A DNA stretch of 64,000 bases from Alphaproteobacteria bacterium. GTDB taxonomy: Bacteria; Pseudomonadota; Alphaproteobacteria; UBA7887. The stretch is from NCBI GenBank assembly GCA_030739735.1, contig JASLYQ010000002.1, positions 62,001-126,000 of the forward strand. The letters run 5' to 3'. The stretch's first letter is position 1. Each line of letters begins with the position of its first letter. Shown one piece after another: positions 22,254-36,373 of this stretch. The notes below the pieces were generated by a model, which was not told where the DNA came from, searched no databases, and was given only the letters and a program-made list of their open reading frames with translations. The translations under genes and the position numbers were made by a program.

Positions 22254-23870
22254 CTAGGGGTTGTCGAATTCTCTTTTCGGTCCAAGGTAGTACCACCAGT
22301 TCAGAACCAGACAGACAAGGTAAAAAACCGCAAACCCATAAAGAGCGTATTGCGGCGTAGCCGCTTTTATCTGCTCACTGAACACCTGGGGTATGATAAA
22401 GGCGCCGTAGGCCGCTACCGCCGAAGTCCAGCCCAAGGCCGGTCCCGCTTGCTCCTTTGGAAAGATCATGGCAATGGTTCGGAAGGTCGAGCCGTTACCT
22501 ATCCCGGAGCCGGCAAATAGCAGCAGAAAAAGCAGGAAGAACGGCACGAAGTAGTCTTCCGGCGTCGCAGATTGATAAGCAGCCTGCATGAAATAAGCCA
22601 CGCCAAAGGCGCTCACGATCATCAGGACGGTGATGACCTGAGTGACCTTGGCCCCGCCGACCTTATCCGAGATCCAGCCACCGATGGGACGTATCAGAGC
22701 TCCGATGAAGGGGCCAAGCCAAGCGAACATCAGGGCGCTCGGGCCATTCGGATTGAGGGTGTCGTGCGTCAGGACGCCATCGACCTCAAGGTGCTGGTAT
22801 CCGAAGATGACCTTTATGGCGAGTGGAAAAGCAGCTGAATAGCCAATGAAGGAACCGAAGGTCATGGTGTATATGACACTCATGACCCAGGTATGCTTAT
22901 TCTTGAAAATTCCGTACTGGCGCCGAAGATTGTCTTTGACGAAAAAGCACACGTAGTAAAGCAGGAGGACCGTCGCGGCGATAACGCCGAGGAGTACGAA
23001 CCACTTAGACCATATTGGCCAGCCCAAGCCGATCGGCGCCGGAAGAATCAAGAAGAGACCGCTGGCAGCAGTGACGAACCCTACCAAGAGCATCGCTGTG
23101 ATACGGGAGAACGCACCCAGCGGACCGCCGGCTACTACCGGTGTCACATCCTGCGTTCGGATGTTGTTCATACCAAACCAACCGGCGAAGGCCAGCGGCA
23201 CGAGAAGGATCAGCCAGACAAAGCCGGCGTTTTGAATCCAGGTTTGCGAGCCGGCCGGAATCTTGCCAACCAACGTGCCGGAGGTGCTTTGCAAGGTCAT
23301 GGGATCGCCCGTCAGCGATCCAAAAACACCAAAAGTCATCACCAGCGGCACCAATATTTGCATGGTCGTCACACCGGCATTGCCGAGTCCCGCGTTCAGG
23401 CCGAGCGCCAGGCCTTGTACGCGCTTGGGAAAGAAAAAGCTGATGTTGGACATCGACGAGGCAAAATTGCCTCCGCCGAATCCCGATAGCAAGGCCAGCA
23501 CTTGGAAAACCCATAGCGGCGTTTCCATGTCCTGCAGCGCGATGCCCGTCCCGACGGCTGGAATCATCAGTAGAGCGGTGGTGAAAAAGATGGTATTTCG
23601 ACCGCCAGCGATGCGGATGAAAAACGTGCTCGGAATGCGGAGCGTAGCACCGCAGAACCCAGCGATCGCAGAGAGCATGAACAACTCGGACTTGGCAAAG
23701 GGAAAGCCAAGATTGAGCATTTGTACCGTTATGATGCCCCAGTACAGCCAAACCGCGAATCCGCAAAGCAAGCTGGGGATCGATATCCAAAGGTTGCGTC
23801 TAGCGATGCGCTTCCCGGTCGAACTCCAGAATGCATCATCCTCGACGTCCCATTTTTCGATATTAGTCAT
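22254..23870 (-). CDS. narK: NarK2-type nitrate/nitrite MFS transporter
   Basis: A 538-residue MFS protein of the nitrate/nitrite porter family. It has two nitrate-signature glycine-rich helices: GFGGGNFASSMSNISFFFPK (with GLALGLNAGLGNAG following) and FAGSGIGNGSTFRTIAMIFP. It closely parallels the second half of the fused transporter upstream, indicating tandem duplication. ATG 23870 follows a GGGAAAG ribosome site and matches the beginning of the equivalent half of the fusion. Last gene of the nar operon, likely nitrate/nitrite exchange. Confidence 0.88.
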   Translation of the reverse strand: MTNIEKWDVEDDAFWSSTGKRIARRNLWISIPSLLCGFAVWLYWGIITVQMLNLGFPFAKSELFMLSAIAGFCGATLRIPSTFFIRIAGGRNTIFFTTALLMIPAVGTGIALQDMETPLWVFQVLALLSGFGGGNFASSMSNISFFFPKRVQGLALGLNAGLGNAGVTTMQILVPLVMTFGVFGSLTGDPMTLQSTSGTLVGKIPAGSQTWIQNAGFVWLILLVPLAFAGWFGMNNIRTQDVTPVVAGGPLGAFSRITAMLLVGFVTAASGLFLILPAPIGLGWPIWSKWFVLLGVIAATVLLLYYVCFFVKDNLRRQYGIFKNKHTWVMSVIYTMTFGSFIGYSAAFPLAIKVIFGYQHLEVDGVLTHDTLNPNGPSALMFAWLGPFIGALIRPIGGWISDKVGGAKVTQVITVLMIVSAFGVAYFMQAAYQSATPEDYFVPFFLLFLLLFAGSGIGNGSTFRTIAMIFPKEQAGPALGWTSAVAAYGAFIIPQVFSEQIKAATPQYALYGFAVFYLVCLVLNWWYYLGPKREFDNP

Positions 23871-23925
23871 TTTACTTTCCCATTGCTTTGCTTGGCGTGA
23901 CTGACCGTGCCTGTTCGAGCTCGCA

Positions 23926-26625
23926 TCAGTCGCACCTGACCTCGGCTCCCTGACGCCTGTACCACCACCAGGTAACAAACAAACAAGCCAGGTAGAACGC
24001 TATGAAGAAGAATAGGGCCGACCGCGGGCTGCCTGTGTTCTCGATAGACACGGCAACCATTGCCGGAATGATGAACATCGCCAGCGCCCCGATCGAGGCG
24101 GTAAAGCCTAGCGCCACGGATGCTTCGATCTCTCCGGTCGATATGGAAGTATCTCGCGCGACCTCAGATTGGCTCACCGCTCGGCCCTCGTGAAGCTTGC
24201 GAAATACGGCCGGTACGAGATGGAAGACCGATCCGTTGCCGACGCCAGCGGTGAAGAACAGCGCCACGAAAACCAGGAAAAAACTGTTCGCGTCACCGCC
24301 GGACCCGGCCGGCAGACTCAGCAACAGACCAACCGCCGCCAGCGCCATGCCCGCAAAGCTCCAGACCGTCACTTTGGCCCCGCCGATGCGATCTGCCAGC
24401 CAACCCCCGAGCGGCCGAACCATGGCCCCCAGCAGTGGCCCGACGAAGACCCACCGAACCATCTCCGACTGTGGAAACAGGGCATAGATAAGGATGGGAA
24501 AGGCGACAGAAAAGCCGATGAAAGAGCCGAAAGTACCGGTATAGAGGCAGGCCAGAACCCAGGCGTGTTTGCGGCGAAAGATCACGGCCTGTTCCGCAAA
24601 CGTCGCCCGCGCCTCGCGAATGTTGTCCTGGCCCAAGGCAGCGGCAAAGGTGGCGCCGAGTATAAACGGCACCCAGGCGAAGCCAGCATTCTGCAACCAA
24701 ACCTTGCTCACCGCATCGCCGTCGACACGGGTCTGGGGCTCGCCGCCCAGGATGGTGAAGGCGCCGGCATAGATCACCAGAGGCACCACCGCCTGCACCA
24801 GACCGATGCCAAGATTTCCGATTCCAGCGCTCCAGCCCAGAGCGGCACCTTGCATGCGCTGGGGAAAGAATAAGCTGATATTGGCCATACTGCTGGAGAA
24901 ATTACCGCCACCAAACCCACATAGTATAGCAATGATAAAAAATATGACGTAATCAGTGCTTGGATCCTGAACTGCCAAGGCCATCCACATGGTCGGGATC
25001 AGCAACGATGCGGTGCTGAACACGGTCCAGTTCCTGCCCCCGAAAACGGGCACGAAGAAGGAATAGAGCAGGCGCAACGCGGCGCCCGAAAGACCTGGTG
25101 CAGCTGCCAGCCAGAAAAGCTGACTTGTCGTGAACTCGAAGCCGACACGCGGCAATTCGACAACCACCACGCTCCAGACCGTCCACACTGCGAGAGACAA
25201 CAGCAACGGCGGCATGGAAAAGATCATGTTACGCAGGGCAATAGCCCGCCCGGTCTTTTCCCAGAAGGCCCTGTCTTCTGGGCGCCAGTATCTCAGCCAG
25301 CTGCCGCGACGCTGCGCCGCTGCCTCCACCTCATCGCGGATCACCTGTTCCCGAAATTCGGTGTTATTTCGCAGCATTTCTAGGCGCTCTTGCCTAGCGG
25401 CAGCCCAGGTCCAGATCATCACCCCTGCAAGAACAGCATACATCACCATGAAGGTACTGCTGCGCACACCCGAGGCGTCCGCTGCGATTCCGAATATGAT
25501 TGGCAAAGTGAAACCGCCGAGGCCACCAATCACACCGACCAGCCCACCTACCGCACCCATATTGCCAGGATATCCGTCGGCCAGACTGCGATAGACGCTG
25601 GCCCCGCCTATGCCCATGGCGATGCCAACAATAAAGATTAGGAAGGTGAAGAAAATTACGCTAACGGCAAGATTGAATGTAATATCGCCAGATATTCCAT
25701 GAACGGTGAAGGTAGTTGCCGGGTAGGAGAGAAAAAACAGACAAATTATCGAAACCCAAAATACCCACCAAGTAACGTTATCACCGCCCCATTTATCCGA
25801 GAACCAACCACCCAGGGCCCGGATCACGCCAGCTGGCAGCGTAAATGCCAATGCGATATACGACGCCTGCATCAAGCTCAGCTCGTATTCCTGCATGTAG
25901 TATTTTGGCAACCACAGGGCCAACGCCACGAATCCGCCGAACACGGAGTAATAGGCAAGACCGTATCGCCACACTCTCTGATCCCGCAGAGGCACGAGTT
26001 GGTCGACAAGCCGCGGCAGATTTCCCTCTCGTCGACGCTCCTCCAGCAGCGGATCGGGATAGGTGAACAGCCAAAAAAGGATAGCCATCACCAGCATTAC
26101 TACCGAGTAAATTTCCGGTACTGTGCGCCAGCCAAAGGTCACTACTATCAGCGGAGCAACTAAGTTCGTCACGGCCGCACCGGCGTTGCCGGCGCCGAAT
26201 ATTCCCATCGCCGTGCCTTGCTGCCGTTTGCTGAACCAAGCCGAGGTATAGGCGATGCCGATGGCGAAGGAGCCGCCGGCAAGGCCCACAAACAGGCCGA
26301 TGATGAGGTATTGCCAATACTGATCCGCGAAAGCCAAGCCATAAGTCGACGCGGCAACCAGGAGCATCTGTATAAAGTAGACGATACGCCCGCCGAAACG
26401 GTCGGTTAGAAGGCCAAGTGGCAAACGCACCAAAGAGCCGGTAAGTATAGGTGTTGCAACCAAAAGCCCAAACTCGGTCTCGTTCAGATCGAGCTCACCC
26501 TTGATCTTGATGCCAATGATTGAAAACATCGTCCAAACCATGAAGTTGACCGTAAAGGCCACCGTACTCATGGTTAGGACGGTGTATTGTTTCCTTTTCT
26601 CGTAGTGAAAGCTATCGCTGGGCAT
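23926..26625 (-). CDS. narK: Fused NarK1-NarK2 nitrate/nitrite transporter
   Basis: An 899-residue protein made of two complete MFS transporters, as described for the NarK of Paracoccus. Residues about 1-420 are NarK1-like (proton-linked nitrate uptake: signature GAGNAGAAVTNLVAP and GGLVGVIGGLGGFTLP). A cytosolic linker with WLRYWRPEDRAFWEKTG follows. Residues about 460-890 are NarK2-like (nitrate/nitrite antiport: GFGGGNFSSSMANISLFFPQ and GVGNGSVFHLVPAVF). Location directly after narI and before another narK2-like gene gives three transporter units in the operon. Confidence 0.92.
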   Translation of the reverse strand: MPSDSFHYEKRKQYTVLTMSTVAFTVNFMVWTMFSIIGIKIKGELDLNETEFGLLVATPILTGSLVRLPLGLLTDRFGGRIVYFIQMLLVAASTYGLAFADQYWQYLIIGLFVGLAGGSFAIGIAYTSAWFSKRQQGTAMGIFGAGNAGAAVTNLVAPLIVVTFGWRTVPEIYSVVMLVMAILFWLFTYPDPLLEERRREGNLPRLVDQLVPLRDQRVWRYGLAYYSVFGGFVALALWLPKYYMQEYELSLMQASYIALAFTLPAGVIRALGGWFSDKWGGDNVTWWVFWVSIICLFFLSYPATTFTVHGISGDITFNLAVSVIFFTFLIFIVGIAMGIGGASVYRSLADGYPGNMGAVGGLVGVIGGLGGFTLPIIFGIAADASGVRSSTFMVMYAVLAGVMIWTWAAARQERLEMLRNNTEFREQVIRDEVEAAAQRRGSWLRYWRPEDRAFWEKTGRAIALRNMIFSMPPLLLSLAVWTVWSVVVVELPRVGFEFTTSQLFWLAAAPGLSGAALRLLYSFFVPVFGGRNWTVFSTASLLIPTMWMALAVQDPSTDYVIFFIIAILCGFGGGNFSSSMANISLFFPQRMQGAALGWSAGIGNLGIGLVQAVVPLVIYAGAFTILGGEPQTRVDGDAVSKVWLQNAGFAWVPFILGATFAAALGQDNIREARATFAEQAVIFRRKHAWVLACLYTGTFGSFIGFSVAFPILIYALFPQSEMVRWVFVGPLLGAMVRPLGGWLADRIGGAKVTVWSFAGMALAAVGLLLSLPAGSGGDANSFFLVFVALFFTAGVGNGSVFHLVPAVFRKLHEGRAVSQSEVARDTSISTGEIEASVALGFTASIGALAMFIIPAMVAVSIENTGSPRSALFFFIAFYLACLFVTWWWYRRQGAEVRCD

Positions 26626-26661: not shown

Positions 26662-27360
26662 TTATTTTTTTAGTGCAACGTATCGTCTCATAGAAATAAA
26701 TGGCCTCGTAAAGTATGCGAATGGATAGCTGAATATATGCACCAGCTTGGTGAAAGGTAGATAGCTGAAAAAGATCAATGCAACAATTACATGCAGCTGG
26801 TTCACCAACGGAGCACCCGCAATCATGGAAGCATCGGGCTGCAGCTTGAAAATGCTGCCGAGCCATGGTCCAACCGAATAGGATATTCCGAAAAGCCTTT
26901 CGACGGCAGACTGATAAAGCCCGAGACCACTGATTAAGATCAAGAACAGTAGGATGATATAATCATCCAGCTTGCTCATGGCCCTCACTTGCGGAATGGC
27001 CATTCTCCGTAGGAAAGCCCAAACAATTCCATAGAAAAACAGAACGCCGCCACCAAGTCCCGCCCATTGGAAAAAGTTGACCCAGGACGCCAGGTTGTAA
27101 GCACCACCGATAAAGCCGATGATGTGCGCGAAAAACAGGATGATTATGCCCCAGTGCAGGCACAAGGACGCTGGGCCAATCGATGCCCTACCGAAGAATC
27201 CGGTGGAGCGGGTAGTCCATAGGTAGTCACCGCGGACGGACAGATCCCACTTGCCGCGATAGCTGCTCATCATGCCGCTACAGCCGCGATATATCGTGCC
27301 ACCAACCAAAAACAAGATGGCGATGTACGGCAGTCCAATGAAAAAGAAGTTCTCCCACAT
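26662..27360 (-). CDS. narI: Respiratory nitrate reductase gamma subunit (cytochrome b)
   Basis: A 232-residue membrane protein with five helices, the dihaem cytochrome b that oxidises quinol and passes electrons to NarH. Histidines likely to bind haem are in SLCLHWGIIILFFAHIIGF and, near the end, NQLHVIVALIFFSYLPFTKLVH. The C-terminus FSYPFAYFTRPFISMRR is typical. It follows narJ by 17 bases. Base composition is AT-rich like the rest of the nar block. Confidence 0.93.
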   Translation of the reverse strand: MWENFFFIGLPYIAILFLVGGTIYRGCSGMMSSYRGKWDLSVRGDYLWTTRSTGFFGRASIGPASLCLHWGIIILFFAHIIGFIGGAYNLASWVNFFQWAGLGGGVLFFYGIVWAFLRRMAIPQVRAMSKLDDYIILLFLILISGLGLYQSAVERLFGISYSVGPWLGSIFKLQPDASMIAGAPLVNQLHVIVALIFFSYLPFTKLVHIFSYPFAYFTRPFISMRRYVALKK

Positions 27361-27377: not shown

Positions 27378-27974
27378 TTAGTTTATTCCCACGTGGGTTG
27401 CGCTCTTTTCAATACTTATGACATTTGCTAACGCATCGAGCAGGTGTAGATACGGCGTCTCCAGCTCCTCCAGACGGTGGCGCAGCGGAGGCAGAAACGG
27501 CAGGAAATACTCGTTGATGAGCTTATCTCGTATCGGGTCCTCCATGGACTCGGTGCTCAGTGCAAGAAAATCCACCATCATTGGCAGGTAGTCAGGCAAC
27601 TCTATTCCATTCGGCTGCCGACCAAAGTGCTTGTAGATACCGACCAGGTCGATCATGTAGCCGTTCCTGTCGGAAATGGCAGCACTGGCACAGGTCTTGG
27701 GCTCGTCGTATGTGTGACTCCCCAGATACAGAGAACACTGAGGATCCAACTCGAACAGCTCGATATACTCTTCCTCCGAGATATCGTTCTCACCGAGAAA
27801 CGTGGAGAGCAGCGTGGCGCTCGGCGCGTCGATGGCCCGCAACCTCTCAATAACCTCTGCAGCGATCTTTCTGCCTTCATCACGCTCCGCATCCGAATCG
27901 GGCGGGCTGCACCACAATTCCGCTATGAGAGCGTAAACCTCTCCCAGGGTCTCGGTTTCAGCCATATTATTCAT
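27378..27974 (-). CDS. narJ: Nitrate reductase molybdenum cofactor assembly chaperone
   Basis: A 198-residue acidic, helical protein of the TorD/NarJ family that holds apo-NarGH for cofactor insertion. The region DPQCSLYLGSHTYDEP and ELPDYLPMMVDFLAL (the ELPD.LP motif) are NarJ hallmarks. The start at 27974 overlaps the end of narH by 8 bases; an alternative ATG lies 9 bases on. It sits in the standard order narGHJI. Confidence 0.9.
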   Translation of the reverse strand: MNNMAETETLGEVYALIAELWCSPPDSDAERDEGRKIAAEVIERLRAIDAPSATLLSTFLGENDISEEEYIELFELDPQCSLYLGSHTYDEPKTCASAAISDRNGYMIDLVGIYKHFGRQPNGIELPDYLPMMVDFLALSTESMEDPIRDKLINEYFLPFLPPLRHRLEELETPYLHLLDALANVISIEKSATHVGIN

Positions 27975-29535
27975 AGTCTTTCGATTCTGTGTGATACGAC
28001 TTGAAATAACTCTTTCTGCGCTTCAACGGCGACCATGGTGTCATCTGGTCGAACCCAGCGACGCCACGCTCCGTATAGGGACTGATGTCCGCGGATTCGC
28101 GCTTGGTCGTCGGCACCACGAAGCGCTCATCGTAGAATGCCAGGGACAGCGCCCGCACAATTCCATTGGCGTCCTCTTCGCTCAGACCGACCTTGTCGAG
28201 CACTTCCTTATTCGGCGTGCCATCGACCCTTATGCTTCGCTGGTAGTGCCGTATCGCGAGTTGTCGCAGCAGCGCAGTCTTCACCACGTCCTCGTTTCCG
28301 GCGCCGAACATGCTGGCGAGATATTGTAACGGCACCCGAAGCTTCTCGAGCTCGTCGAGCGAAAGCAGCGGGCCGTCCGACGGCTTCTCCATGTCGAAGA
28401 CATCCTCGCCGCTTGGTGAATCCTTTCCGGCGCTGGTTATCATCGGCGCCAACGGCGGTATGTAGAACAGGCTCGGCATGGTCCGGAACTCGGGGTGCAG
28501 CGGCAGCGCCAACTTCCACTTCTTAATGATCTTGTAGACCGGTGAGCGTTGCGCGGCGTCGATCCAATCATCGCTGATGCCGCTTTCCTTGGCTGCCGCG
28601 ATCACGGTCTCGTCGAAGGGATCGAGGATCACCTCCCTTTGGGCCTCGACCAGATCCTTGTCATCGGCCATTGCGGCTTCCTCTACCCGATCTAAGTCGT
28701 AGAGCAGAACACCGAAAGAGCGAATCTTGCCGACACAGGAATGGAAGCAAACCGGAGGCAGACCCGACTCGATCCTCGGATAACAGAGAATACATTTCTC
28801 CATCTTGCCGCTAGACCAATTGTAATACGGCTTCTTGTAGGGGCAGGCCGAAACGCAATAACGCCAGTTTCGGCACCTGTTTTGATCGATGAGAACGACA
28901 CCGTCTTCCTCCCTCTTGTAGGCGGCCCCCGATGGGCAGGAACCAACACAAGCCGGATTGAGGCAGTGATTGCATATGCGCGGAAGATAAAAATAAAAGA
29001 CGTCTCTGAACTTTAGTACCGCCTCCTTTTCGCGCTCGCTCATCTCGTCAAAGTTCACGTCGTGCTTACCGGTGATGTGGGCACCGCCGGCATTGTCTTC
29101 CCAATTCACACCCCAGTTGATGGGGATATCCTCCTCCTCGGTGACCATGGATTTCGGCCTGCCGACAGGTTGCTGCGTCGATTGCTCGGAGGAGTGGAGG
29201 TCATCATAGGTGAAGGTATAAACGTCGCCGTCCCCATAGTAGTCGGCCATCTCCGGCGTGTGGGGGTTCATAAAGAGATTGGAGAGCATGTAGGCCTTAC
29301 TGCCATAGCGCAGTTTCAGCTTGTTGCCATTCCGCACCCATCCTCCCTTCCATACATCCTGGTTTTCCCATTGCTTGGGATAGCCGATACCTGGCTTGGT
29401 CTCGACGTTGTTCCACCACATGTATTCGGCGCCTTCCCGGTTCGTCCACACATTCTTGCAGGCGACCGTGCAAGTGTTGCAGCCGATACACTTCTCCAGG
29501 TTGAACGTCATACCGATTTGAGCTTTGACTTTCAT
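27967..29535 (-). CDS. narH: Respiratory nitrate reductase beta subunit (Fe-S protein)
   Basis: A 522-residue iron-sulphur protein linking NarI to NarG. Cysteines 16, 19, 22 and 26 (CIGCNTCTVACKN) start the first cluster. Later groups are CNHCLNPACVGSCPSGA, CRNWRYCVSACPYKKPYY (Trp in place of one Cys, the mark of the 3Fe-4S cluster) and CILCYPRIESGLPPVCFHSC. ATG 29535 has a GGTGAAG ribosome site and gives the usual N-terminus; a GTG 12 bases earlier is possible. It starts 12 bases after narG. Confidence 0.94.
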   Translation of the reverse strand: MKVKAQIGMTFNLEKCIGCNTCTVACKNVWTNREGAEYMWWNNVETKPGIGYPKQWENQDVWKGGWVRNGNKLKLRYGSKAYMLSNLFMNPHTPEMADYYGDGDVYTFTYDDLHSSEQSTQQPVGRPKSMVTEEEDIPINWGVNWEDNAGGAHITGKHDVNFDEMSEREKEAVLKFRDVFYFYLPRICNHCLNPACVGSCPSGAAYKREEDGVVLIDQNRCRNWRYCVSACPYKKPYYNWSSGKMEKCILCYPRIESGLPPVCFHSCVGKIRSFGVLLYDLDRVEEAAMADDKDLVEAQREVILDPFDETVIAAAKESGISDDWIDAAQRSPVYKIIKKWKLALPLHPEFRTMPSLFYIPPLAPMITSAGKDSPSGEDVFDMEKPSDGPLLSLDELEKLRVPLQYLASMFGAGNEDVVKTALLRQLAIRHYQRSIRVDGTPNKEVLDKVGLSEEDANGIVRALSLAFYDERFVVPTTKRESADISPYTERGVAGFDQMTPWSPLKRRKSYFKSYHTESKDYE

Positions 29536-29547
29536 GGTCTTCACCAC

Positions 29548-32500
29548 TCATTCACTTGGCAACTTATGGAGTTCGCTTTCCTGATAGATCGGTCTGTTCT
29601 CAGACCCCAAGGGCATTTTTCGAATTATCACCCCATGGTCGCGTTCGGACGGACTCGTTCCCCAATAGTTTATGTAATAGGAGAATTGGGCATAACCGCC
29701 GATCATCGTCGCCGGATTCATCAGGATTCTCGTGGTGGCATTGTTGTTTCCGCCGCGCAGGTCCGAGGCGCCGTGCTTCTTGGCAAGCGGCGACAGCGGA
29801 ACGTTCACATGGCGTTCTACCTGATGGTAGGTGATAGCCATGTTGCGCGGCACCTGATGGCTTACGACCGCTCTTACAACTTCGATGCCGTTCTCGCAGA
29901 ACATCTCGACCCAGTCGTTATCGCGCACCTCTATTTCTGTCGCATCGTCGGGATTCAACCATACCGTAGGCCCGCCCCGCGACATGTGCATCATGGGCCA
30001 ATGGTCTCGGAACGAGCTGTGTATCTGCCATTTCCCATGCGGCGTGATGAAGCGGAATATCTTCGACTTTGGTCCGGCTTTGGCCAAATCGATATCGCCG
30101 ATCGCGACCATGTCCAACGGCGGCTTATTCGTCGGCAGCGCCTCTCCGAGTTCCCTGATGCCCTCGTGGTCGTAATAGATCTCCTGGCGTCCGGAAAGCG
30201 TGTGCCACGGCTTCAGCCGTTCCACGTTCATGGTCCAGGGGCCAAAGGTTCGCTGCTTGCCGTCCGAGTCGTGCAACAACGCGCTCCATTGTGGCGTGAT
30301 ATGGATTCTGCGCGGCTGGGAAATGATATCCTTGTAGTGGACTTTCCGGTTCTTGACCGACTCGACCATATCGGCCATCGGCAAACCGACCTTCTTTTCC
30401 ATTTCCTTGAAAAAGAGGTGCGACAGACGGCCGTTAAGCTCAGGAGATATCTGCAGAATTAGCTCGCACGCCTGCTCAGGTTTTTCGAAATAGACGCGGT
30501 CGTTCTTCACGTCTAGCGCCTGGTTGTGCTTGAGCTCCTCCTCGACGATAGGCGTCAAATCGGCGTATTGGCCTTTCGAGCCATAGCCCTTGGGCTTGCT
30601 GACCAACGGGCCGAGCGAGACCATTTTTTCGTAAACCTTAGTATAGTCTCTTTCGACGATAGCGATGTTCGGGAAGGTCTTGCCCGGGACCAGCTCGGTA
30701 TCGCCGTTTTTCCAGTCCCTGACCTCGCCCAATGGCTGAGCGAGCTGGTCTGGACTGTCCATCCACAAGGCGTTGAAGACGATATCCTTGACCGGCTCAG
30801 GAAAATGCTTCTCAGCCATTTTCGAGAATTTTTTGGCAATGATCCTGAACGCATCCCAGTCGTGCTTAGCCTCCCACGGCGGCTGCGTTGCCGGCGTCAG
30901 GGGATGCACGAATGTGTGCATGTCGCCAAAGGTGACATCGTATTTCTCGTACCAGAAGGCGGCCGGCAGAACGACATCAGAATAGTTAGCCGTCGAATCC
31001 ATTCGAATATTGAGGTTCACCAGAAAATCAAGCTTGCCGACCGGCGAATCCTCATGCCACTCGATTTCCTTGACCAAATCTTTTGCCGGCTCCTCGTCCC
31101 AGAGCACATTGTTGTGCGTGCCGAGCCAGTGCTTCAGCGCCAATTCATGCCCCCGCATGCTGGTGCCGATCAGGTTGCCGCGGTAAACGGTAACCATTTT
31201 TAGGCGGTTCTCGGGCGCATCCACGTCATTGATCGCGAAATTCAGCTTGCCGCTCCTGAACTGCCCGGCGACCCAATCCTTCACCTCTTGGTCGGAATTG
31301 CAGCCCGCCTTGACGGCATCCTTGTAGAGTTCCATCGGGTTGGTCTTGTCGACCTGCGGGAAGAACGGCAGCCATCCCAGTCTCACGGCGAGGGAGTTCA
31401 TGTCGGCGGCGTGGTTGAACTCGGGAAGCTTCTTCGCCCCCGTGGACCACTGGGTGTCGAGCGACATGTTGTCGTAGCGCCATTGCCCGGTATGGAAATA
31501 CCATAAGGAGGTGGTGTTCATCAGGCGCGGTGGCCGCGACCAGTCGAGAGCGCCGCTGAGATTGACGAAGGCCGCGTTTAGGCGCGTGTGCTGAGTGCCG
31601 ACATAATGGTTGAAATTTCCGCCATTGACACCGTTGCAGCCGCAAAGCGCGAGCATCACCGCCTCGTTGCGATAATACAAAGAGGCACCGTGATAGAAGT
31701 GCTGAATTCCCGGGCCCGTTATGAACAGGGACTTGCCCTTTGTCTTTTCGGCATTGTCGGCGAATTCCCTGCCCACCTGGATGGCGAGGTCGCGGCTGAC
31801 GCCGGTCTGTGCCTCCTGCCAGGCCGGGGTATACGGTTTGGGGTCGTTGTAGTCTTCGGGATAATCGCCGCCCAGCTCGCCTCTTGCCACGCCGGCTTGT
31901 GCCATCAAAAGATCGAAGGCGGTGGTTACGACCAATTCTTTACCATCGTTCGTCCTGATGGTCTTGGCCGGAACCTCGCGCAAGAACTCTACGGCTTTCT
32001 GGCCTTTACCTTCGGTCTTACCCATGTCGATATTGAAGGTATCGGTGAAGTTACTGAACGAGACCATGGCATTCCGGTCTTCGTTACCGAGGAGTGTCAG
32101 GAGCGGATCGAACTCCTCTTGGGTAACCGCGTTCTTCAGCTGAAGATTCCAGTTGCCGGTCGGCTCTTTCTCCCACCTGAAACCGACCGAGCCCGTGGGA
32201 AGGTGCAACTTTCCCTCGCCGTCGGTCATGATTAGCTTCCAATCGGCGTTTTCCTCACCAGCATATTCGGCAATGTCGGAGGCCCGCACAAAGCGCCCCA
32301 TCTGATATTTGTCACCGTCCTTATCGAGCACGACGAGGAATGGCTGGTTGGTATATTGCTTCACGTAATCCGTGAAATAGGGCGTTTCCTTATCGACGTA
32401 GAACTCCTTGAGGATGACGTGGATGCAGGCCATGAGATAGGCGCCGTCGCTCCCGGGCACAAGCGGCACCCAGGTGTCGGCATATTTCGTCACGTCGGAA

Positions 32501-33309
32501 TAGTTGGGCGAGAGAACCACAATCTTGGAGCCACGGTATTTCGCTTCGGAAAGGAAATGCGCGTCCGCGGTGCGGGTCATATTTATGTTCGAGCCGGCGA
32601 CAACCCAGTAGGTGCCGAGATACCAGTCAGAGCTTTCGCAATTTTCCGTCTGATCTCCGAACATCGAGGAAGAAACATGTGGAAGGTCGTGGTACCACTC
32701 ATAGTAGCTGCAATAAATACCGCCAAGCAAATTATTGTACCTGTGACCAGATATAAAGCTTAGCAGACTCATGGCGGGAATGGGAGAGAAGTTGGCCATG
32801 TGGTCTGGGCCATGCTTCTTGATGGTGTGGATTTGAGCCGCCGCGATAAGCTCCGTCGATTCGTCCCAGCTGACCCTCTTCCAGCCCGCTTTTCCTCTCG
32901 CGGCCTTGTACTTCTTCGAGCGCTCCTCGTCTTCGACGATGCTGGCATAGGCCTCGACTGGATCCTTGCCGCTCTTGCGCTCTTCGGCATAGAAATCCCA
33001 CAACACCTTACGTACGTACGGAAATTTCGGCCGCAAGGGGCTGTAGGGATACCAGGAAGCCGTGACGCCTCTTTGGCAGCCCCTAGGCTCTACGTTCGGA
33101 ATATCAGGATCAATCTGTGGATAGTCCGTTTTTTGCAGCTCCCAGCATATTAGGCCGTCCTTTACGAAGACTTCCCAGCTGCAGGCCATCGAGCAGTTCA
33201 CACCATGACCCGAGCGCACGCTGTAGTCATAACTCCATCGTTTTCTGTAAAACTCCTCCCACGATCGAGAAGCCTCACTAACACTAAACCACTTGCTGCT
33301 ATCTCTCAT
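29548..33309 (-). CDS. narG: Respiratory nitrate reductase alpha subunit (Mo-bisMGD)
   Basis: A 1253-residue DMSO-reductase-family catalytic subunit that reduces nitrate to nitrite on the cytoplasmic side. The N-terminal 4Fe-4S ligands His35, Cys39, Cys43 and Cys78 are present (HGVNCSMACSW, EPRGCQRG). The molybdenum ligand Asp208 is in YEWYHDLPHVSS, aligned by eye with the E. coli NarG Asp site. There is no twin-arginine signal, as for cytoplasm-facing NarG. The sequence is rather divergent from proteobacterial NarZ/NarG in the loops. The gene is AT-richer than its genomic surroundings. Main gene of the nar operon. Confidence 0.95.
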   Translation of the reverse strand: MRDSSKWFSVSEASRSWEEFYRKRWSYDYSVRSGHGVNCSMACSWEVFVKDGLICWELQKTDYPQIDPDIPNVEPRGCQRGVTASWYPYSPLRPKFPYVRKVLWDFYAEERKSGKDPVEAYASIVEDEERSKKYKAARGKAGWKRVSWDESTELIAAAQIHTIKKHGPDHMANFSPIPAMSLLSFISGHRYNNLLGGIYCSYYEWYHDLPHVSSSMFGDQTENCESSDWYLGTYWVVAGSNINMTRTADAHFLSEAKYRGSKIVVLSPNYSDVTKYADTWVPLVPGSDGAYLMACIHVILKEFYVDKETPYFTDYVKQYTNQPFLVVLDKDGDKYQMGRFVRASDIAEYAGEENADWKLIMTDGEGKLHLPTGSVGFRWEKEPTGNWNLQLKNAVTQEEFDPLLTLLGNEDRNAMVSFSNFTDTFNIDMGKTEGKGQKAVEFLREVPAKTIRTNDGKELVVTTAFDLLMAQAGVARGELGGDYPEDYNDPKPYTPAWQEAQTGVSRDLAIQVGREFADNAEKTKGKSLFITGPGIQHFYHGASLYYRNEAVMLALCGCNGVNGGNFNHYVGTQHTRLNAAFVNLSGALDWSRPPRLMNTTSLWYFHTGQWRYDNMSLDTQWSTGAKKLPEFNHAADMNSLAVRLGWLPFFPQVDKTNPMELYKDAVKAGCNSDQEVKDWVAGQFRSGKLNFAINDVDAPENRLKMVTVYRGNLIGTSMRGHELALKHWLGTHNNVLWDEEPAKDLVKEIEWHEDSPVGKLDFLVNLNIRMDSTANYSDVVLPAAFWYEKYDVTFGDMHTFVHPLTPATQPPWEAKHDWDAFRIIAKKFSKMAEKHFPEPVKDIVFNALWMDSPDQLAQPLGEVRDWKNGDTELVPGKTFPNIAIVERDYTKVYEKMVSLGPLVSKPKGYGSKGQYADLTPIVEEELKHNQALDVKNDRVYFEKPEQACELILQISPELNGRLSHLFFKEMEKKVGLPMADMVESVKNRKVHYKDIISQPRRIHITPQWSALLHDSDGKQRTFGPWTMNVERLKPWHTLSGRQEIYYDHEGIRELGEALPTNKPPLDMVAIGDIDLAKAGPKSKIFRFITPHGKWQIHSSFRDHWPMMHMSRGGPTVWLNPDDATEIEVRDNDWVEMFCENGIEVVRAVVSHQVPRNMAITYHQVERHVNVPLSPLAKKHGASDLRGGNNNATTRILMNPATMIGGYAQFSYYINYWGTSPSERDHGVIIRKMPLGSENRPIYQESELHKLPSE

Positions 33310-33352: not shown

Positions 33353-33862
33353 TTATCTTACGTCTACTTTCTTTTTCTTACTTACTATAAACCCTACAAA
33401 AGTTAGTCCGAGCAATAGCGCTATGCTTATGGCCAGTGTAGGAACATATTGATGGGGAAGGCCAACCGTCACTACAGTTTGCTGTTCCGTGCTCTTTAAA
33501 TAAGTGATGACTGCGGCCACTTGCTCATCTGTTAGCGGAAGCTGTGGCATCGGCATATCGTCAGCTTCCTGCAACAACTGCATCGCGATCGGGTCGTTTT
33601 CAGCGATCAGCGCCTCAGGGTCCTTGATCTGTCGCTCGAGCCAAGCAGCTTCCCGGCGTGACGTCACGCCTTTCAGATCAGGTCCTATCAATTTACCTTC
33701 GCCAATCGTGTGGCACATTGTGCAAAATTCGGCGAAAACTTCCTCGCCGTCCTCTGCCGCCTCGCCATGATTGATCGACCCCGCCCAAGCGGCAATCATC
33801 AGGATGCCTAACGTAGGAATCCACCATCTGCCTGATAATCCAACACTCATTTTCGCCAACAT
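33353..33862 (-). CDS. Monohaem cytochrome c anchored by a C-terminal helix (nar-linked)
   Basis: A 169-residue protein: N-terminal signal/anchor helix (about 15-30), one haem site Cys47-x-x-Cys50-His51 (CTMCH), a probable methionine ligand in DMPMPQLPLTDEQ, and a second membrane helix at about 141-160 ending in KKKK. It lies immediately upstream of narG, start one base after the stop of the 75-residue gene. A cytochrome c at the head of a nar operon recalls narC of Thermus, although this one has a single haem. It could carry electrons between NarI and periplasmic partners; this is inference. An alternative start is ATG 33850. Confidence 0.85.
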   Translation of the reverse strand: MLAKMSVGLSGRWWIPTLGILMIAAWAGSINHGEAAEDGEEVFAEFCTMCHTIGEGKLIGPDLKGVTSRREAAWLERQIKDPEALIAENDPIAMQLLQEADDMPMPQLPLTDEQVAAVITYLKSTEQQTVVTVGLPHQYVPTLAISIALLLGLTFVGFIVSKKKKVDVR

Positions 33863-33863
33863 T

Positions 33864-34091
33864 TCAATTCGCCGAGTCGATCGGCTCTGTTTTTGCCAAA
33901 CCCACATTCCCCGGACCGACAACGCCGCTCACCCGCTCTAGGAACTCGTTCAATTCCACCAGATGCTGGAAATAGGCCTCCTGCCCCCCCTGAACGTGGC
34001 GGATGTGTCCCCGCCATATCGGTTCGCCGTTGGTTTCGCGTTCAAGGCGAATCCGAGCCACAAAAGAAATCTGTCCTCGTTGTTTAGGCAT
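33864..34091 (-). CDS. 75-residue conserved-looking protein of unknown function, first gene of nar operon
   Basis: A small soluble protein with the pattern FVARIRLERETNGEPIWRGH followed by IRHVQGGQEAYFQHL and a LNEFLERVSGV segment. I have a vague memory of similar small proteins but no function. No membrane segment or cofactor motif. It is separated from the cytochrome c start by one base (TGA A ATG), so the two are translationally coupled. Its promoter region contains the TGTTAC repeats. A role in assembly or control of the nar system is only a guess. Confidence 0.7.
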   Translation of the reverse strand: MPKQRGQISFVARIRLERETNGEPIWRGHIRHVQGGQEAYFQHLVELNEFLERVSGVVGPGNVGLAKTEPIDSAN

Positions 34092-34110
34092 TCAGAACCG
34101 ACTCACACAG

Positions 34111-34155
34111 ATTACAGTGGAGTGCGTAACATCCCCCGGTAACACACCAGTAACA
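34111..34155 (-). promoter_or_regulatory. nar operon promoter with three tandem TGTTAC repeats
   Basis: Read on the minus strand: TGTTAC repeats begin at 34155, 34144 and 34131 (spacing 11 and 13 bases), then 9 bases, then TGTAAT at 34116-34111, which differs from the TATAAT -10 consensus at one position. Direct repeats about one helical turn apart ending 8-9 bases before the -10 are the known operator layout of SARP/BTAD regulators. A BTAD regulator gene lies directly upstream, so these are probable binding sites. The predicted start site is about 13-15 bases before the first gene. Confidence 0.6.
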
Positions 34156-34265
34156 GCCAGCTGATGCGCGGCCCGAAACAGTGCCCGCCAATAGCTGGCA
34201 ACGGCCATGGCCTGAAATACTGGAACGTGATGACGCGTTCGCCGGGGTCGGCCCTATTGGGCTAC

Positions 34266-35447
34266 CTAGCCAGGCTTGGTCGCTGAGACAGAGCCCTTTC
34301 CGGCAATGATCTGGCGGTAGAGCTTCTGCGTCTCAGGCATCGGCTCAACACCAAGCTCAGTGGCCAGAATCTGCCGGCAGTGGTGGTATTGGGCACGTGC
34401 CGAATCGATGTGGCCGAGAAAAGCGAGATATTCCATGAGCGCGCGATGAATGCCTTCGCGACACGGATCGACCACCAGGATAGCGCGGCACACGCCCACC
34501 GCCTCGGCGTATTGGCCAAGCTTGACGTGGCATTCCGCCATGTCGGCCGACATTTCCAAGTGAACCTCTCGGAAACGTTCACGCTCCTCGGCACACCAGT
34601 CGGCATGAATATCCTCTTCCATGTAGTCGCCGCGATAGAGGCGTTGCGCCTCGCTGAAATGATTTAGCGCCATTTCCCAGCGCTGCCGGTCTCGACAGCC
34701 GACACCCTTGGTAATACATGCTTCATAGGCCTGGGAATCGAGCCAGATGGCCTCGCGACGAAGCAAATACGCCTTGCCTGTGGTCTCCACGATTTCCTCG
34801 TGGATGCCGGCGGCTCGCAACTCGCGTCGCAAGGAATATACGGTGACTTTGAGGCGCTTCCAGCCGGTGCCCTCGTCGGTTTCAGGCCACAGCACATCGA
34901 TTAGAATCTCGCGTGGCAGCGCTCGACCCGCGTTAGCAACCAGGAGCTTCAGGAGGGTCAGAGCCTGTTTGCGCTGCCAATCCTCCACTTTGAGACCGCG
35001 GGCTCCGGTGCTGAGGCGGAACCGGCCGAAGGTGAAAATCTGCAACCGGGTGTCAGCCAACGGCCGTTCGCTCTTATCCTTGCCGTTGTGCAAGAATATG
35101 GTTGCAATCCCTGTGAGTTCATCGTCGCTTCGTACCCGCCTCGCCGTGACCACCGAGGTAATGTCCAATGGTACCCAATGATGGTCCTTATGACGCGCCC
35201 GGCAGGACACCGCCTCGAACGGCTGAAATTGCCTGAAGCAACGGAGCCCCTCACAATCGGGGACGCAGAGTGGCTCGCCATCGGGCAAAACGGCTCGCAG
35301 CACATCGGAGCAAGGCTTGCCAATGACTTCACGACGCGTGTGGCCCAAAAGCCGCCGCACCCGGAAATTCCAGGCCACAATCCTCTGATTACCGTCAATG
35401 GCAAAGGCGCCATCTGACGCACTATCGACCAAGTAACGAGCATCCAT
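34266..35447 (-). CDS. PAS - winged helix - BTAD (SARP-like) transcriptional regulator
   Basis: A 393-residue regulator. Residues about 1-125 are a PAS domain containing five cysteines, four of them closely spaced (Cys46, 61, 65, 70, with 82 further on; CVPDCEGLRC). Residues about 135-230 are an OmpR-like winged helix (LQIFTFGRFRLS, then RKQALTLLKLLVANAGRALP). The remainder is the TPR-like bacterial transcriptional activation domain (WEMALNHFSEAQRLYRGDYM). It lies just upstream of the nar operon in the same direction and probably activates it. The cysteines could hold an Fe-S cluster or sense redox/NO; that is inference. ATG 35447 is chosen as the PAS domain begins there. Confidence 0.85.
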   Translation of the reverse strand: MDARYLVDSASDGAFAIDGNQRIVAWNFRVRRLLGHTRREVIGKPCSDVLRAVLPDGEPLCVPDCEGLRCFRQFQPFEAVSCRARHKDHHWVPLDITSVVTARRVRSDDELTGIATIFLHNGKDKSERPLADTRLQIFTFGRFRLSTGARGLKVEDWQRKQALTLLKLLVANAGRALPREILIDVLWPETDEGTGWKRLKVTVYSLRRELRAAGIHEEIVETTGKAYLLRREAIWLDSQAYEACITKGVGCRDRQRWEMALNHFSEAQRLYRGDYMEEDIHADWCAEERERFREVHLEMSADMAECHVKLGQYAEAVGVCRAILVVDPCREGIHRALMEYLAFLGHIDSARAQYHHCRQILATELGVEPMPETQKLYRQIIAGKGSVSATKPG

Positions 35448-35929
35448 CACGATGATGCCCCCAACCACCAACCAACTACGCGCGCAAACCCAATCGAGCC
35501 AAACTAGCGCGAACAGACCCCACGGCGTTCGAAGCAGCATACGCAACTCGCCGCTTTAGTCTTTGATCGAGATTAGTCTTGCGGTCACGGACCACGTCAC
35601 CGCCAATCGATTTCCTGTAGCGATTGTTGGCGCCACGCTTGGCGCACCCATGGACGCGGGATGCGGTCCAAGCTTCCAATTATTACGCCGAAGCCGGAAC
35701 GGACTGCTAATAACGATATGACAATATGCAGTTTTGACATGCTTTGGTTGCACTCGATCAAGGCGCGAACCCTACTGGGAAACCTGACTTTCAGAAAGGC
35801 TCCACAAGGTCTCGATGCTCGGTATACTGCCTTTATATATTTACAATTTCGTGCGATATTTTTTTTGGACAACTCGCGGAAAACTAGCTGTGTTTGTGCT
35901 GCGGGTTCACCGGTGTTAGGAGGTTCGGC
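35448..35929. other. Intergenic region between nar regulator and hemerythrin gene
   Basis: No convincing gene. It contains the divergent promoters of the regulator (minus) and the hemerythrin gene (plus). The stretch 35830-35875 is AT-rich (TTTATATATTTACAATTTCG, then a run of T). Only half-sites of an FNR-type TTGAT-N4-ATCAA box are visible (near 35566 and, on the minus strand, near 35760); neither is complete. Confidence 0.5.
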
Positions 35930-36373
35930 GTGAACTTGATTGACGCACTTCTAGGCGAACATGGCGCGTTCAGCGTGTTGTTCGATACTATCGAGAAGGT
36001 GGCCAAAACAGACGGGGAATTAGCACAAATCGAGAGTGCGACAACGATTTTGACAGCCGAGTTGCTGTCGCATGCCAAATTTGAGGAAAAATCGCTTTTC
36101 CCTGCCCTCAATCCACACTTGGCAGATGGCAATATAATTACTGATTTATACGCAGAACACCAAGCGATTCGGGATGGGCTGGAACAGATACAAGACGCGC
36201 TAGACCTCCGCGGAGCGGTGGATGCCACGCAGCAAACCTTACTGATCGCGCGCAAGCACTTTCGAAAAGAGGAAGAAATTCTTTACGTCACAGCCCGTCG
36301 GGTTCTGGACGATGATGCACAATCCCGTCTCGCCGAGACATGGGCGGCCGCTCGGTCTGTGAACATCAGCTAA
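35930..36373 (+). CDS. Hemerythrin-like HHE domain protein
   Basis: A 147-residue four-helix protein with the histidine/glutamate pattern of di-iron hemerythrins: LLGEHGAF, LLSHAKFEEKSLFPAL, LYAEHQAIRDGLE and ARKHFRKEEEILY. Such proteins bind oxygen or NO, or respond to them. GTG 35930 has a perfect AGGAGG ribosome site 7 bases upstream and fits the family start. It is divergent from the PAS-BTAD regulator, suggesting a role as an oxygen/NO-binding accessory to nitrate respiration (inference). Confidence 0.88.
   Translation: MNLIDALLGEHGAFSVLFDTIEKVAKTDGELAQIESATTILTAELLSHAKFEEKSLFPALNPHLADGNIITDLYAEHQAIRDGLEQIQDALDLRGAVDATQQTLLIARKHFRKEEEILYVTARRVLDDDAQSRLAETWAAARSVNIS

Follow-up and report, generated by a model that had tools for sequence, protein, structure and literature searches.

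A regulator that joins a PAS domain to a winged helix and a BTAD domain is encoded beside the nitrate-respiration (nar) operon of the window (the whole 64-kb stretch of DNA analysed here), and the promoter of the operon carries an operator of three direct repeats. Both the regulator and its operator are real and conserved. The regulator is a probable redox-sensing on-switch; its sensing chemistry, its DNA binding and the direction of its control are what we infer. It belongs to a wider PAS-BTAD family of the SARP/DnrS kind with a defined operator, for which the 'dedicated nar switch' of an earlier sequence-only reading is too narrow a description.

Regulator gene and nar operon

The regulator gene (34266..35447, minus strand, ATG at 35447) encodes 393 aa. 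All three predicted domains were above cut-off in a Pfam scan: a PAS domain (PF00989, 30 bits), an OmpR-type winged helix (PF00486, 33 bits) and, after it, a BTAD domain (PF03704, 97.7 bits). This is the winged helix and BTAD order of the SARP/BTAD type, so the SARP-type fusion described from the sequence alone was borne out. The same scan gave no match to a GAF domain. By profile, the relatives with solved structures were AfsR (8hvr, E=2.6e-14) and EmbR (2fez, E=5e-12). These actinobacterial SARP proteins have the winged helix and BTAD in common with the regulator, but they carry NOD/TPR or FHA parts where the window protein has a Cys-rich PAS domain. A mediocre AlphaFold model (pLDDT 69, pTM 0.42) agrees with a PAS fold but is no guide to the geometry of the cysteines. 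A gene for a hemerythrin-domain protein (35894-36373, plus strand) lies behind the regulator on the opposite strand.

The regulator is on the same strand as the nar operon and upstream of all its genes, as had been noted. It does not directly precede narG: a 75-aa ORF and a cytochrome c gene come first. The gene order after the promoter is 75-aa ORF, cytochrome c, narGHJI and two narK-like transporters, all on the minus strand. The 75-aa ORF (33864..34091, MPKQRGQISFVARIRLERE...WRGHIRHVQG) matched no Pfam family and has relatives in the same position in G067, G087, G194 and G293; in several loci, the operator is followed first by a gene of this protein family (SFVARIxLE...WRGHIRHVQGxxExYF). 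The cytochrome c (33353..33862; PF00034, 50 bits), a mono-haem protein with a membrane segment at its C-terminus, has the position of Thermus narC in the Thermus gene order. For narG (29548..33309), the match to TIGR01580 was above cut-off (1324 bits). The other genes were assigned as ORFs rather than by profile scan: narH (27967..29547) by its position and by 4Fe-4S Cys motifs visible in its sequence, narJ (27378..27974) and narI (26662..27360) by position, and the fused double narK-like MFS transporter of 899 aa (23926..26625) and the second narK-like MFS transporter after it (22254..23978) by reading the sequence.

Homologues and their gene neighbours

Among 96 relatives searched, close homologues of the regulator were found in G006 (48% identity), G067 (44%) and G087 (44%). 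A class sample of 385 genomes added G188, G194, G287, G293 and G312 and a fragment in G359, and the family of G194 added G749 (two copies), G750, G751, G752 and G755. No further member was found in a phylum-wide sample of 398 genomes, meaning that the PAS-BTAD family is sparse. A scan of a contig collection with the single regulator protein matched only PAS-LuxR relatives. A literature search found no relevant paper combining BTAD and PAS with respiration.

Most neighbours of the homologues were respiratory genes. In G194, G293, G750, G751 and G752, the neighbouring operon comprised two MauG-like di-haem proteins, a Rieske protein and an AioA-like molybdoenzyme; G287 has the same operon on another contig than the regulator. 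The G067 homologue is next to genes for di-haem and Rieske proteins, that of G087 next to a cytochrome cluster and that of G312 next to a porin gene; the neighbour in G006 is a fragment similar to the N-terminal portion of a quinol NO reductase (qNor; read from the sequence rather than scanned). The proteins of the AioA-like operon were profile-scanned for G194. In gene content, this set (Rieske protein, two peroxidases, molybdoenzyme) corresponds to the iodate reductase cluster idrABP1P2 (PMC8692401); despite this content, NCBIfam places the AioA-like enzyme of G194 in the arsenite oxidase type. AioA/IdrA-like operons were located at L068:6592-11997 and L103:1-5375 and in L118, L119 and L120, in several regulator-bearing genomes.

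None of the other homologues examined adjoined narG, and eight genomes of the same family had no narG match at E<=1e-200. The nar cluster is thus only one of the gene clusters that regulators of this type would control, and the dedication to nitrate respiration proposed earlier does not fit relatives that adjoin AioA/IdrA-like operons, a qNor-like gene or a cytochrome cluster. The search of other genomes that had been suggested did yield PAS-BTAD genes with the same repeats, but not next to narG.

Cysteine cluster of the PAS domain

The Cys cluster spans residues 46-82 (35202..35312, minus strand), with Cys46, Cys61, Cys65, Cys70 and Cys82 at the positions reported before. In an alignment of nine homologue sequences (40-48% identical), Cys46, Cys61, Cys65 and Cys82 were invariant (9/9), and Cys70 was kept in 8/9, missing only in G312. 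The regulator thus has the three to four or more conserved cysteines expected of an Fe-S or thiol PAS sensor. Homologues with unconserved cysteines, lying away from nar genes, had been named in advance as evidence against the proposal; their location is indeed away from narG, but the cysteines are conserved.

In the nitrate-related NreABC system, oxygen is sensed by the kinase NreB through a [4Fe-4S] PAS domain. NreB likewise ties a Cys-rich PAS domain to nitrate respiration, but it is a histidine kinase with a different Cys spacing, whereas the window protein is a DNA-binding one-component regulator. Two PAS-LuxR proteins from Chloroflexota MAGs (L010, L011) have a clearly homologous PAS domain with three of the five cysteines in a C-x14-C-x3-C core; they have a LuxR-type output and no equivalents of Cys70 and Cys82.

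Comparison with Thermus DnrS

The sequence-only reading placed the known nar regulators in other families. Thermus DnrS contradicts this: it is an oxygen-sensitive GAF-BTAD protein on which nar transcription depends (PMC5748679, PMC6282519), and its conformation changes with oxygen (PMC5748679). The novelty of the proposed nar switch had been overstated. Together with DnrT, DnrS activates narCGHJIKT and is encoded beside cytochrome c-narGHJI-narK; the window regulator is likewise a BTAD gene adjacent to a nar operon. The winged helix and BTAD parts of both proteins are 30% identical over 185 aa, and within the plasmid collection the closest narG was that of Thermus (47% identical to the window narG).

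The N-terminus of DnrS (C33-x14-C48-x2-C51) resembles the C46-x14-C61-x3-C65 of the window regulator, and in outline the two designs, a Cys region plus BTAD, look alike. Homology of the two Cys regions is suggested by this spacing; given the weak profile scores (hhalign probability 17.7%), it is a lead. The motif is conserved in T. parvatiensis and absent in the Deinococcus GAF-BTAD relatives of DnrS (L124, L125), which adjoin a molybdopterin oxidoreductase and an MFS (nitrate/nitrite-type) transporter. DnrS is longer (601 aa), with a GAF domain in between that is absent from the window regulator, and, unlike the latter, it has no Pfam PAS match. Its gene is divergent from nar and in an operon with a CRP-type partner, whereas the window regulator is on the nar strand, and the DnrS locus is without the TGTNAC array. 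An oxygen-sensitive conformation is known for DnrS only, and a 2020 review calls its sensor not known and assumes the GAF domain (PMC7694296).

The PAS domain could also control the operon in response to a non-redox signal (flavin, haem or a small molecule), with the cysteines in a structural role such as a zinc site. PAS domains bind many ligands, and the C-x14-C-x3-C core also occurs in the Chloroflexota proteins. We regard this as unlikely, since most neighbour genes encode respiratory redox enzymes and DnrS, with its similar motif, is sensitive to oxygen.

Operator at the nar promoter

The operator (34126..34155, minus strand) consists of three TGTTAC half-sites at 34155-34150, 34144-34139 and 34131-34126, spaced 11 and 13 bases apart. 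Nine bases after the third follows TGTAAT (34116-34111; 34111..34116, minus strand), the putative -10 element. The arrangement reported from the sequence alone was thus confirmed. The array was unique in the window, with 0.01 matches expected within 3 mismatches. In the 2.64-Mb genome, the TGTNAC/TGTTA version had one exact match, the nar promoter array; further matches (2 with one mismatch, 11 with three) were within the background of a reversed control pattern.

In SARP promoters, the direct repeats lie 11 bp from each other and the 3' one is 8 bp away from the -10 element; the proteins bind as side-by-side protomers contacting sigma region 4 (PMC10936776). The one-turn spacing given in the earlier reading agrees with this. 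The first spacing of 11 matches the SARP pattern (11 or 22 bp), and the gap to TGTAAT is 9; different from SARP operators are the third half-site and the second spacing of 13.

A repressor that binds the repeats and silences respiratory operons in air would fit the overlap of the array with the place of the -35 element, and the direction of control is unreadable from the sequence. We consider such a main role improbable: those BTAD/SARP members whose mechanism is known act as activators, the distance to the -10 element is SARP-like (PMC10936776), and no good -35 element is visible in the window promoter.

Operator conservation across genomes

The hypothesis (TGTNAC, spacing 11 then 13) was defined on the window, which was then left out of the test on seven other genomes. 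For G006, G067, G087, G194, G293 and G312, the regions were the 500 bases after each regulator, and the array had been seen there by eye before scoring; the region of G287 was chosen because a pattern search had found the array there. The summed best score was 91, compared with 62.6 +/- 2.0 for shuffled sequences, and none of 1000 shuffles reached 91. The 11/13 spacing ranked first among 196 spacing pairs.

Three out-of-sample loci fetched after the test (G750, G751, G752) scored 14/15 each. G287 has two arrays at its operon on C98, one scoring 15/15 and another that is weaker, even though its regulator gene lies on a different contig (C101). At the second regulator copy of G749, two half-sites (TGTCAC and CGTCAC) 11 apart and a poor third were seen by eye. 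Control loci scored at most 11/15; these were 11 narG loci, extending ~1.5 kb beyond narG, from genomes in which the search of the relatives had found no regulator homologue of this type, plus the Thermus locus. The consensus over 13 sites was TGTtAC-Cggc-G-TGTtAC-CGg..cg-TGtTAc. For the -10 element, the enrichment was weak: the summed score was 42 (shuffled mean 33.8, reached by 8 of 2000 shuffles), and the hexamer was recognisable only in the window and in the C13 copy. A search for autoregulatory sites upstream of the regulators themselves revealed no strong operator; the exceptions were G067 and G188, with two half-sites close to the start.

The three-half-site operator therefore travels with the regulator and the neighbouring respiratory operon. 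Conservation of both sequence and spacing alongside the regulator supports the earlier reading of the repeats as a putative operator, and the same three-part sequence beside relatives at nitric-oxide and iodate/arsenite-type respiration genes is probably the target of the regulator.

Two CRP/FNR-type HTH proteins are encoded elsewhere in the genome (above cut-off), and these could also act on nar. That one of them is the main control of nitrate respiration, with the PAS-BTAD protein as a bystander, is highly improbable, as operator conservation tracks the PAS-BTAD protein and no FNR-box-like sequence was found within 2 mismatches in 33865-34265, between regulator and operon. An FNR box near the promoter as the nar control site was rejected on this result.

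Other operator copies in this genome

Further copies were sought by pattern search. Eight sites matched TGTTACYGRYGTGTTACC with at most one mismatch (two-half-site copies), and the next ones had three. The sites C13:50782 and 50622 form a tandem pair ahead of a porin-like gene; a NirJ/AhbD-like radical SAM protein and a protoporphyrinogen oxidase are encoded next to them. The C1:100344 copy stands before an outer-membrane-protein-like gene. Several copies are where no promoter is expected; those at C1:35875 and C13:49197, between converging genes, may be relics. A regulon made up of further copies is possible.

Two segments, C13:50591-50708 and C11:18628-18716, resemble the nar promoter region (79-82% identity along 89-119 bases), meaning that part of the copy set (C13:50622 and C11:18629) arose by duplication. 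On contig C13 of this genome (G000; L062:5197-6799), tandem copies of the promoter region lie upstream of the porin-like gene, and the second apparently interrupts a copy of the 75-aa ORF. The C11 segment (L066; 89 bases) has 82% identity to the first two nar half-sites together with the sequence upstream of them, and it stands before a gene read as lysyl-tRNA synthetase. These shared segments, and the near-perfect but partly oddly placed copies, would fit a dispersed DNA element of this genome rather than an operator, a reading with hardly any probability left because half-sites and spacing are conserved in other genomes where the flanking sequence is not; a purely local repeat family was rejected on the same cross-genome conservation.

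Proposed mechanism and significance

On balance, we favour a one-component, redox- or oxygen-responsive SARP-type activator of the nar operon. Low oxygen (or a change in NO or redox state) would act on the Cys-rich PAS domain, which probably holds an Fe-S cluster or reactive thiols. The change in the PAS domain would alter how the winged helix-BTAD part oligomerises or binds DNA. Adjacent protomers would then occupy the repeats, substituting for a -35 element, and recruit RNA polymerase; a transcription start near 34104 is predicted. The predicted target here is the small ORF-cytochrome c-narGHJI-narK operon, and elsewhere other terminal-reductase operons.

More tentatively, the data may reveal a family of one-component oxygen/redox switches absent from the literature searched. 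In this family, a five-cysteine PAS domain would control a SARP-type winged helix at a three-half-site operator, as an exchangeable module for terminal reductases (nitrate, NO and iodate/arsenite-type), and the same Cys module might be the oxygen sensor of Thermus DnrS.

If true, control of the AioA/IdrA-like operons is predicted; one iodate-reduction paper, searched for regulator terms, names no regulator (PMC8692401). The N-terminal Cys cluster before the GAF domain would become a concrete candidate for the oxygen sensor of DnrS. The DNA target of the family would already be defined, so that binding and regulon tests could be designed at once, and the oxygen-sensing mechanism would become testable via the shared regulator and operator. 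The finding would add a family of respiratory regulators outside FNR, NarXL and NreABC.
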